Below, piece after piece: positions 39,308 through 42,508 of a stretch of DNA of 46,458 nt (positions are counted from its first letter, which is position 1; each line of letters begins with the position of its first letter). A model generated the notes under the pieces. The model was not told where the DNA came from. It ran no database searches and worked only from the letters and a program-made list of their open reading frames with translations. The translations under genes and the position numbers were made by a program. Origin of the DNA: a bacterium (lineage in GTDB: Bacteria > Patescibacteriota > Minisyncoccia > JAHIHE01 > JAGLIN01); contig DAOWDU010000014.1 of the NCBI GenBank assembly GCA_030638825.1, positions 1 to 46,458 of the forward strand. The letters run 5' to 3'.

Positions 39308-42300
39308 ATGCAAAAATACAATCCTCAAAAAATTGAAAAGAAATGGCAGAAAGAATGGGATAAAAGCGAGATTTACAAGGCAGAAGATTTTTCTGAGAAG
39401 AAGAAGTTTTATTGCTTAATTGAATTCCCCTATCCATCTGGCGCTGGTTTGCATGTGGGACATTTAAGAAGTCATATTGCGATTGATATTATTGCTAGGA
39501 AAAAAAGAATGAGTGGATATAATGTGATGTATCCAATCGGCTGGGACGCTTTTGGGTTGCCGACAGAAAATTTTGCGATTAAGACAAAGACTCATCCAAA
39601 GATCGTGACGGAAAATAATATCAAAAATTTTACCAAGCAAATCAAAAGCTATGGACCAAGTTTTGACTGGTCGCGGGAAATAAATACCACTGATCCAAAA
39701 TATTACAAATGGACACAGTGGATTTTTTTGAAATTATTTAATAGCTTTTATGACGAGAAATTAGATAAAGCGCGTGATATTAAATATTTAGATATTCCGA
39801 AAAATTTAAATGCTTTAGAAAAAAGGGAATTTATTGACAGTCATAGATTAGCTTATGAAGCGGAAATGGCAATCAACTGGTGCCCGAGTTGTAAAATTGG
39901 ATTAGCGAATGAAGAAGTTGTGAATGGCACTTGCGAAAGATGCGGGGCTTTGGCAGAGAAAAAAATTATGAAACAATGGATGTTGCGAATCACAAAATAC
40001 GCAGATAGGTTGATTAAGGATTTAGATACTGTTGATTATTTAAATAAAATTAAAACGCAGCAGGTTAATTGGATTGGGAAATCAGAAGGAGCGATAGTTA
40101 AGTTTCAAATTAAAACTGACGACAATATAAAAACCCCGGAGCATAGCTCAGAGGTTTTTAATGAACCTGAGGGTAATCCCAGGTGCAGATCAAAGACTTG
40201 TCATCCCATTTACAATAATAGTATAAATGATAATGAAAAAGTTGTCAAGTCCAAAAATGACGCTGAGCCGGCAGAGGGATTCGAACCCTCAGATAATAGG
40301 ATGACAAATCTATATCTGCACCATGCTACTGGCAAATCAACGCCAAATTTATTATACCACTCTTTGAAAGTTTTTACCACTCGCCCCGATACTTTATTCG
40401 GATGCACTTATATGGTTTTATCGCCAGAACATCCACTAATTAAGAATTTAGAATCTGGAATTTTGAATTTAGAGGAAGTTAAAAAATACATTGAACAAGC
40501 GAAAAATAAATCTGATTTAGACCGAACTGATTTGGCGAAAGAGAAAACGGGAGTTGAATTGAAAGGAATTAAAGCGATTAATCCAATTAATAACGAAGAA
40601 ATTCCAATCTGGCTTGCGGATTATGTTTTGGCTTCTTACGGCACTGGCGCAATTATGGCGGTACCTGCGCATGATGAGAGGGATTTTGAGTTTGCGAAGA
40701 AGTTTGGATTGGAGATAAAGCAAGTTGTAGCGCCATTGTTTATTGGTGAAGGAAAAAATAAAATTAGAAAAGATAAGAAAAATACGAAAAGAACGGTTGT
40801 AGATGTTATAATTAAGCATTGGGAAAAAGATGAATATTTTTGCTTAGACTGGAGTAAAAGTAAAAATGATTGGAAGTCTTTTGTTGTCGGTGGCGTTGAA
40901 AAAGGAGAGAGCGAAGAGGAAGCAGCTTTGAGAGAGGCAAAAGAAGAATCTGGTTATCAAAATATGCGTGTTGTGAAAAAAATTGGAGGCATAGCCTATA
41001 GTCGTTTCTTTGCGGCTCATAAGGATGTTAATCGTCGTGATATAAAAAGAAGTTGTGTCTATATAGAATTATTGAATAGTAGTTTTATAGAACCAAAAGA
41101 AGAGGAAGTAAAAAATCATAATGGTATTTGGGTTAAAAAAGAAAAAGTAAAAGATTTCATAAATTTACAAGAACCAAAGATTCATTGGGATATTCTTCAA
41201 AATGGGGAAAAACCTTTTATAGGGTATGGTATTGCAATAAATTCTGAACAGTTTAATAATTTAGAAACCAGCGAATTTAAAATAAAAATAACCAAATGGC
41301 TGGAAGAAAACAACCTTGGCAAAAAAGCGATAAATTATAAATTGCGTGATTGGGTTTTTTCTAGACAGCATTATTGGGGGGAACCGATTCCAATTGTGAA
41401 ATGTGAGAAGTGCGGGAATATTGCGTTAGAAAAAAAAGATTTGCCTCTTGAACTTCCAGATGTCAAAAATTATGAGCCGACAGATACTGGCAAATCCCCT
41501 CTTGCAAAAATTGATCAGTGGGTAAATATAAAATGTCCGAAATGCAATAGCAATGCCAAAAGGGAAACTGACACGATGCCGAACTGGGCTGGGTCAAGCT
41601 GGTATTTTTTGCGATATATAGATTCTAAAAACAATAAAGAATTTGCTTCACCAGAAAAATTAAAATACTGGATGCCTGTTGATTTATATAACGGCGGAAT
41701 GGAACACACGACTTTGCATTTGCTTTATTCTAGATTTTGGCATAAGTTTTTATATGATTTAGGATATGTAAATACTTCCGAGCCATACAAAATACGAAGA
41801 TCTCACGGAATGATACTTGCTGAAGATGGACAAAAAATGAGCAAGTCCCGCGGAAATGTTGTTAATCCTGATGAAGTTATTGAGAAATATGGAGCGGATA
41901 CTCTCCGTCTTTATGAAATGTTTATGGGTCCGTATGGCGACGCAATTCCATGGAGCACGAGTAGTTTGATTGGGATGAATAGATTTTTGGAAAAGATCTG
42001 GAAAATGCAAAATAAAGTAGGGACACAAAATTTTGTGTCCGCAAACAAAAATATAGAAACATTGCTTCATCAAACAATAAAAAAAGTTACAGAAGATATT
42101 GAAAATTTAAAATTCAATACGGCGATTAGTTCACTAATGATTTTGTTAAATGGACTAGATAAAAAAGAAAAAATATCAAATATTCAATATTCAATATTCC
42201 TAATTATGTTATCCCCTTTCGCTCCGCATATTACAGAAGAATTATGGAAGATGTTTGAAAATAAAGAAAGCATTCATTTGCAGAAATGGCCAGAATACAA

Positions 42301-42508
42301 TGAAAAATTAGCTGAAGAAACAGAGATAACTTTAGTCATTCAAATTAACGGCAAAGTGCGAGACCAAATAGAAGTTCCAGCTGATATTTCCGAAGAAGAA
42401 GCAAAAAAAATCGCTTTAGGAAGAGATAAAATAAAAAAATGGACTGAAGGAAAAGAAATGAGGAAGATTATTTTCGTAAAAGGGAAATTGGTCAATGTGG
42501 TTGTGTAG
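39308..42508 (+). CDS. leuS: Leucyl-tRNA synthetase with inserted Nudix domain and an extra insertion
   Basis: 1066 residues, class Ia; typical length is about 800-860. HVGH (49-52) and KMSKS (843-847) are the ATP signatures; VFTTRPDTLFG and GTGAIMAVPAHDERD are the editing-domain motifs; zinc-type CxxC pairs occur near 195-217 and 700-750. Insertion 1 (about 277-355) between IKTDD and KVFTTRPD is non-conserved and is encoded by DNA with an antisense tRNA-like sequence (see 40266-40333). Insertion 2 (about 478-632), between KQVVAP and GYGIAINS, carries a full Nudix box G-x5-E-x7-RE-A-K-EE-S-GY (528-550). A 20-bp palindrome and four heptamers occur near the C-terminus. Synthesis of Leu-tRNA is certain as a role; the Nudix role is unknown. 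Confidence 0.95.
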   Translation: MQKYNPQKIEKKWQKEWDKSEIYKAEDFSEKKKFYCLIEFPYPSGAGLHVGHLRSHIAIDIIARKKRMSGYNVMYPIGWDAFGLPTENFAIKTKTHPKIVTENNIKNFTKQIKSYGPSFDWSREINTTDPKYYKWTQWIFLKLFNSFYDEKLDKARDIKYLDIPKNLNALEKREFIDSHRLAYEAEMAINWCPSCKIGLANEEVVNGTCERCGALAEKKIMKQWMLRITKYADRLIKDLDTVDYLNKIKTQQVNWIGKSEGAIVKFQIKTDDNIKTPEHSSEVFNEPEGNPRCRSKTCHPIYNNSINDNEKVVKSKNDAEPAEGFEPSDNRMTNLYLHHATGKSTPNLLYHSLKVFTTRPDTLFGCTYMVLSPEHPLIKNLESGILNLEEVKKYIEQAKNKSDLDRTDLAKEKTGVELKGIKAINPINNEEIPIWLADYVLASYGTGAIMAVPAHDERDFEFAKKFGLEIKQVVAPLFIGEGKNKIRKDKKNTKRTVVDVIIKHWEKDEYFCLDWSKSKNDWKSFVVGGVEKGESEEEAALREAKEESGYQNMRVVKKIGGIAYSRFFAAHKDVNRRDIKRSCVYIELLNSSFIEPKEEEVKNHNGIWVKKEKVKDFINLQEPKIHWDILQNGEKPFIGYGIAINSEQFNNLETSEFKIKITKWLEENNLGKKAINYKLRDWVFSRQHYWGEPIPIVKCEKCGNIALEKKDLPLELPDVKNYEPTDTGKSPLAKIDQWVNIKCPKCNSNAKRETDTMPNWAGSSWYFLRYIDSKNNKEFASPEKLKYWMPVDLYNGGMEHTTLHLLYSRFWHKFLYDLGYVNTSEPYKIRRSHGMILAEDGQKMSKSRGNVVNPDEVIEKYGADTLRLYEMFMGPYGDAIPWSTSSLIGMNRFLEKIWKMQNKVGTQNFVSANKNIETLLHQTIKKVTEDIENLKFNTAISSLMILLNGLDKKEKISNIQYSIFLIMLSPFAPHITEELWKMFENKESIHLQKWPEYNEKLAEETEITLVIQINGKVRDQIEVPADISEEEAKKIALGRDKIKKWTEGKEMRKIIFVKGKLVNVVV
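40129..40159 (-). terminator. Antisense terminator hairpin inside leuS
   Basis: aaaaacc...ggttttt outer stem with gagc/gctc inner stem; on the minus strand it is followed by TTTTTAT. It would end an RNA started at 40220-40248. Confidence 0.6.
40129..40213 (-). ncRNA. Candidate antisense RNA inside leuS
   Basis: About 85 nt from a strong promoter to a terminator on the strand opposite leuS. It has a hairpin cctggg-attac-cctcagg-like and the terminator stem. It contains blocks complementary to the neighbouring tRNA-like sequence (GGATGACAA, ATCTGCACC, GGGA, ACCCTCAG). No known RNA family is recognised; the existence of the transcript is inferred from signals only. Confidence 0.4.
40220..40248 (-). 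promoter_or_regulatory. Consensus-like antisense promoter inside leuS
   Basis: Minus strand: TTGACA (40248-40243), 17-bp spacer, TATACT (40225-40220). Start would be near 40213, reading against leuS. Confidence 0.65.
40266..40333 (-). tRNA. tRNA-like sequence antisense within leuS (possible Asp GTC, probably degenerate)
   Basis: On the minus strand a perfect T-arm (GAGGG TTCGAAT CCCTC) is followed by acceptor 3' strand TGCCGGC and T73. The 5' strand GCCAGTA pairs with it with one A-C mismatch and one wobble. The anticodon arm holds TTGTCAT (GTC, Asp) but its stem has a bulge or mismatch, the D-arm is poor, and the total is only 68 nt. An extended -10 (TGGTATAAT, 40358-40350) lies 17 nt upstream. 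It may be a tRNA remnant or a tRNA-like RNA rather than a working tRNA. CCA is not encoded. Confidence 0.45.
42021..42040. repeat. 20-bp perfect palindrome inside leuS
   Basis: ggacacaaaa and its complement, no loop, translated as GTQNFVS near residues 905-911. Confidence 0.8.
42172..42199. repeat. Heptamer tandem repeat x4 inside leuS
   Basis: aatatca, aatattc, aatattc, aatattc, translated as ISNIQYSIF. Same family as the murB tract at 1015. Confidence 0.8.

Follow-up and report, generated by a model that had tools for sequence, protein, structure and literature searches.

Antisense to the leuS gene of a patescibacterial contig of 46,458 nt (the whole stretch analysed, hereafter the window), we find a locus for two small RNAs that we regard as a so far undescribed element of Patescibacteria, in which RNA1, a mini-tRNA-like RNA that could be aminoacylated, would be silenced by a tandem antisense RNA, RNA2. 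We give this reading, undescribed locus and predicted function jointly, a probability of roughly 60%. All genomes used are assemblies, mostly of environmental DNA, and the family is described here by comparative sequence analysis.

The host gene is a single open frame of 1066 codons (1066 aa), whose product scores 970.7 bits against TIGR00396 (cut-off 548.4). An extra insertion of about 80 codons had been noticed in a sequence-only reading of this gene, and a genome of the same genus bears this out: its leuS has a short loop instead, with flanks that are 90% and 88% identical, and because the 250-nt stretch is missing there it is an insertion in the window leuS (~82 residues when read as protein). 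The gene and the insert are located as follows.

39308..42508, + strand: leuS, leucyl-tRNA synthetase (LeuRS), host of the insert (TIGR00396 and Pfam domains)
40118..40363, + strand: insert in the CP1 editing-domain hairpin, approximately residues 271-352 (absent in same-genus leuS; low pLDDT)

The spacing from NWIG to TTRPDTLFG is 112 residues in the window LeuRS and 32-38 in most of the LeuRS compared (relatives plus 80 named contigs); the window's protein insert was not common to the homologues in this comparison, and the counter-case raised beforehand, a homologous LeuRS with the same protein insert, did not appear among them. In the AlphaFold model, pLDDT values below 50 are confined to residues 275-349 and the remainder is confident, so the insert is modelled as a disordered protein segment. 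The leuS frame stays open through it in only 16 of 4000 dinucleotide shuffles, and the two stop-free in-frame joins within one 46-kb contig argue against misassembly. The same CP1 loop is an insertion hotspot with unrelated inserts in other lineages; this, together with the absence from the sister genome, indicates that the insert was captured, and it would be translated if leuS is expressed. The earlier suggestion that non-coding DNA was captured and is maintained as an open protein frame thus stands as to the capture and the frame, yet the captured DNA is itself a conserved RNA locus, which fills nearly the whole insert with little extra sequence.

On its minus strand the insert holds, in order, a promoter, the 69-nt tRNA-like RNA1, a second sigma-70 promoter, RNA2 and a terminator. 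Each part of the unit as first described (an extended -10 TGGTATAAT, a tRNA-like sequence with a perfect T-arm, TTGACA-17-TATACT, about 85 nt and a terminator) is present on this strand, to which we add that the tRNA-like unit spans 69 nt, that its arm 40322-40293 has a complementary counterpart, 40211-40182, in the 85-nt RNA, and that the RNA1-P2-RNA2 arrangement is conserved in other genomes. The predicted features are:

40351..40359, - strand: P1, extended -10 TGGTATAAT upstream of RNA1 (sequence; -35 weak)
40265..40333, - strand: RNA1, 69-nt tRNA-like RNA (covariance model 116 bits; covariation)
40333-40327/40273-40267, - strand: RNA1 acceptor stem
40317-40309/40300-40291, - strand: RNA1 extended anticodon-like arm
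40290-40274, - strand: RNA1 T-arm, perfect, GAGGG-TTCGAAT-CCCTC
40293..40322, - strand: RNA1 part complementary to RNA2, D-loop plus anticodon-like arm (duplex energy; folds)
40220..40248, - strand: P2, sigma-70 promoter TTGACA-17-TATACT (consensus match; conserved in homologues)
40128..40213, - strand: RNA2, ~85 nt (complementarity to RNA1; fold z -3.2)
40211-40182, - strand: RNA2 5' arm, antisense to RNA1
40128..40160, - strand: intrinsic terminator of RNA2 (hairpin -16.3 kcal/mol, then T-run)

P2 agrees with 11 of 12 sigma-70 consensus positions and is the top sigma-70 match within leuS. The fold of the insert's minus-strand RNA beats 200 of 200 shuffles (z -4.9), and when the whole strand is folded the arms of RNA1 and RNA2 join in one long hairpin; no terminator was detected between the two RNAs. 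The RNA1:RNA2 duplex of the window is predicted at -41.9 kcal/mol, versus -18.6 for upstream DNA. The tRNA and covariance check proposed for the minus strand gave no ARAGORN call, in the insert or elsewhere in the window, and Rfam matches in the window were sub-threshold only (mascRNA 21.5 of 42.5 bits; RF00005 18.4 of 29), with 116 bits for RNA1 on our own covariance model. Several palindromic elements, TTGTCATTGCGAG...CTCGCAATGACA, also lie between genes in the window's own genome (L184-L187); they have no relation to the RNA module.

Using blastn with the insert against sets of 92 and 384 genomes, only its own copy and tRNA T-arms were matched; a sequence profile was needed. A profile of 40126-40325 retrieved two loci, in genomes G090 and G046, with homology spanning the tRNA-like unit, P2 and the complementary arm of RNA2, and G046 carries a second copy in tandem. 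A covariance model of RNA1 plus promoter, built from the first four sequences, then identified, at E 1e-7, 25 loci spread over 14 families and 19 of the 384 class-level genomes, counts that are lower bounds under strict filters; a later model added a 26th locus in G285 (RNA2 match -46.3 kcal/mol). The alternative first proposed, a genuine antisense RNA locus within an essential gene, is therefore upheld in part, in that the conserved locus occurs at 24 other places. ARAGORN called none of the 25 loci a tRNA, and across 4227 Rfam families no gathering cut-off was reached by the window element or the homologues examined; with sub-threshold scores only, assignment to a known Rfam family was rejected. 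Weak model matches (L106, L126, L145, L217, L221, L222, L254:2302) were dropped as ordinary tRNAs, or as lying at or beside them. A phage or plasmid origin is unsupported by blastn, which gave no match against phages (window element and one homologue) or plasmids (one homologue), and by pattern scans of IMG/VR, where no family member with RNA2 was found. One GC-rich viral IMG/VR contig (L267:5085-5155) encodes an RNA1-like tRNA whose D-arm is reduced and which has G3.U70, a CUA (amber) triplet and no accompanying RNA2; this tRNA resembles a suppressor or pyrrolysine-type tRNA.

Conservation of RNA1 is most evident in its pairing. Across the 25 distinct sequences, in an alignment that was fitted to the covariance model, 95.2% of cells are paired and 18 of 21 pairs show compensatory changes; the covariation was matched by none of 500 shuffles, and sliding the partners lowered the pairing to 40-65%. 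In the gap-free alignment of the first four sequences, 10 of the 21 pairs already carry compensatory changes. A D-stem and a variable loop are absent in all 25, T-loop U54, C56 and A58 together with A37 are invariant, and U33 is present in 24. A UGCA T-loop is always accompanied by a D-loop AG (7/7) and a UUC/UCC T-loop by a D-loop GG (18/18), as expected if the two loops touch as in the tRNA elbow. The anticodon-like arm is interrupted and 9 bp long, as long as D-stem and anticodon stem normally are together, so RNA1 could plausibly adopt an L shape. At the acceptor end, 21 loci have G3.U70/A73 and four, including the window copy, C3-G70/U73. G3.U70 is the classical alanine identity element, and the identity elements thus suggest alanine identity of RNA1 in 21 of the 25 loci. 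The triplet at the anticodon position is GUC, AUC, GCC or ACC (23/25), or else GGU. CCA is not encoded. In most copies the acceptor stem is flanked by base pairing between leader and trailer, which may be an obstacle to RNase P/Z, and upstream -10-like boxes are present in most homologues.

RNA2 is tied to RNA1 by both its promoter and its sequence. TTGACA is found in P2 of 22 of the 25 loci, and at least 10 of 12 consensus positions are matched in 23 (5% of shuffles). The RNA2 5' end carries ~30 nt complementary to its own RNA1, the first of them lying between -5 and +9 nt relative to the end of the P2 -10 box (both in 24/25 loci), and the own-pair duplexes have predicted energies of about -29 to -51 kcal/mol. 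Matching was tested by these duplex energies; MAFFT alignment of the full locus misaligns RNA2. The own-pair energies sum to -1044, whereas permuted pairings average -651 (sd 27) and none of 20,000 equals the true sum; the own partner is the best one in 19 of 25 rows. These statistics are descriptive since the copies are related by descent and permutation and Fisher values overstate their independence. Ordinary tRNAs paired with their own downstream DNA, as a control, averaged -17.1 (best -26.4). In G106 and G064, where homologous neighbours stand in the same order, differences in the RNA1 loop are compensated in RNA2. The exception is G046c, where a transposase-like ORF immediately follows RNA1 and RNA2 is absent within 3 kb. 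Comparative sequence analysis thus shows that evolution keeps RNA1 and RNA2 complementary, with both sides changing together.

Most copies are intergenic, without a conserved neighbour. Three lie antisense and in frame in long proteins, namely leuS in the window and the inteins of G090 and G096, whose host proteins are repeat-rich and surface-type, the inteins being confirmed by PF14890 plus terminal motifs. In both, the RNA module occupies the linker, where an endonuclease often sits:

L200 1-7419 and L251 2661-4448, - strand: mini-inteins of surface-type proteins with antisense RNA module (PF14890, intein motifs)

Of the 22 intergenic copies, 8 likewise have an open antisense frame, so that in-frame capture is not very unlikely. 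The window genome has one copy of the module only. Elsewhere, two copies lie 0.3-3 kb apart in L242 (G235), L243 (G076), L250 (G285) and L201 (G046), in direct or inverted orientation, with RNA1 and RNA2 sequences that differ between the paired copies and match within each.

On our preferred reading, transcripts from P1 would give rise to RNA1, perhaps through tRNA maturation, and RNA1 would then be processed and charged in tRNA fashion (with alanine in the G3.U70/A73 type). RNA2 would first contact the anticodon-like loop and then invade the arm and the D-loop, opening the tRNA-like fold and so silencing RNA1, the mode expected of an antisense antitoxin; long P1 transcripts could also pair internally, RNA1 with RNA2. 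The leuS copy would have been acquired in a permissive loop, its antisense frame being read as a disordered protein segment. The two RNAs are possibly an RNA-only toxin-antitoxin-like module. A more specific version, which we hold only tentatively, is an addiction module in which RNA1 is an alanine-charged, D-armless mini-tRNA and RNA2 its labile antisense antitoxin; as the anticodon-like triplets would read Asp or Gly codons, RNA1 might mistranslate or jam ribosomes, and such a module might be selfish enough to persist in intergenic sites, an essential gene and inteins.

The competing explanation that fares best, and which we consider a serious if less probable one, is that the family is real and the window copy a dead relic, kept only as an open, disordered LeuRS loop. 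In the window RNA1, one acceptor pair is broken and the lone fold is weak (z 0.06), the consensus structure being about as stable as the MFE, and for the first two reasons this copy may be decaying or weakened by residence in leuS; the disorder of the insert in the AlphaFold model and the tolerance of the same loop for unrelated inserts in other lineages point the same way. Against this, the T-arm is perfect, and P2, RNA2, the terminator and the RNA1:RNA2 match (-41.9) are all intact. A regulator without a toxin pair seems rather unlikely to us: RNA1 would mimic a tRNA, binding a synthetase, EF-Tu or another tRNA-binding factor, and RNA2 would switch it off, or, in a cis variant, the same arm in a long P1 read-through transcript would fold RNA1 against RNA2. 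The single long hairpin of the whole-strand fold, the lack of a detected terminator between the RNAs and the vertical conservation in G106 and G064 are in line with such a role, whereas the separate promoter that sets the RNA2 start at the antisense arm in 24 of 25 loci favours action in trans, and no conserved target gene lies near the copies.

A remnant of the CRISPR crRNA/tracrRNA type (repeat, anti-repeat, hairpin, terminator) is similar in look, with an anti-repeat followed by hairpins and a terminator, but is highly improbable and was rejected: the window genome has no Cas1 and no further repeat copy, no cas genes were seen by eye among ORFs neighbouring the other family copies, and the acceptor and T stems of the tRNA-like RNA1 co-vary. 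Chance capture of a tRNA 3' end and a promoter, the remainder being coincidence, is hardly credible, for although the T-arm and acceptor strand look like tRNA-Gly and tRNA-Leu and the 5' part of RNA1 fits no ordinary tRNA better than shuffles (on which ground a whole-tRNA relic was also rejected), it is refuted by the shared architecture and covariation of 24 homologous loci.

Canonical tRNA (RF00005) and the D-armless tRNAs of animal mitochondria are close comparisons for our proposed mini-tRNA. RNA1 shares with canonical tRNA the T-arm consensus, the 7-bp acceptor stem, U33 and a purine (A) at 37, and the D-loop/T-loop contact; it differs in having neither D-stem nor variable loop, in an RF00005 score below the cut-off, and in its interrupted 9-bp arm, leader/trailer pairing and dedicated antisense RNA. 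The tRNA-like domain of tmRNA (RF00023) is similar in lacking a D-stem, in the helix adjoining the T-arm and in G3.U70/A73, this last likeness holding for 21 of 25 loci, with C3-G70/U73 in the window copy. Two homologues score 37.9 and 33.1 bits on RF00023 (cut-off 47), in alignments that need a deletion of ~300 nt, the tag-coding domain being absent. The four genomes tested have a separate normal, full tmRNA too, and other loci there reach ~32 bits; as the homologues score little above these, descent from tmRNA is not claimed. The mascRNA/menRNA family (RF01684), the window's best sub-threshold Rfam match, is likewise tRNA-like without a full cloverleaf, but is the 3' product of a human lncRNA, without an antisense partner. 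The type VIII toxin-antitoxin system CreTA consists of two small RNAs, one silencing the other, as we propose for RNA1 and RNA2. In CreTA, CreT is repressed by Cascade under the guidance of CreA, a CRISPR-like RNA (PMC9458426); RNA2, in contrast, is predicted to pair directly with the tRNA-like RNA1, a pairing that the sequence comparison strongly supports, and would silence it. Rickettsia palindromic elements (PMC10969869) resemble the leuS insert in that DNA of a non-coding type forms part of the reading frame of a protein gene; the insert is set apart by its single copy in the genome and by being a promoter-bearing RNA locus instead of a dispersed palindrome.

Neither the 4227 Rfam families nor the open-access literature searched contained a tRNA-like RNA that has its own antisense partner co-evolving with it. 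Should RNA1 be charged and reach the ribosome, bacteria would have a tRNA that lacks both D-stem and variable loop, and with it a new means of attacking or tuning translation. The copies in leuS and in two inteins would be RNA genes on the antisense strand of protein genes, one sequence with two products.

The LeuRS of these lineages also carry other insertions. Palindrome-type repeats are read as protein at the same CP1 hairpin in L065, L066, L077, L103 and L145, the one in G009 having ~11 more partial copies in its own genome, and the same loop contains a DUF559 domain, a serine hydrolase (two lineages) or a second NUDIX domain in L104, L106, L108 and L125. A NUDIX domain also lies within the CP1 editing domain of the window LeuRS (40760-41300), as in family members and other Patescibacteria. 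The LeuRS of relatives (L029, residues 843-1026; L066; L099) contain an entire Ham1/RdgB nucleotide pyrophosphatase as an insertion, bordered in the same-genus protein by a short repeat (FIASK), and LeuRS in this family reach lengths of up to ~1350 aa.
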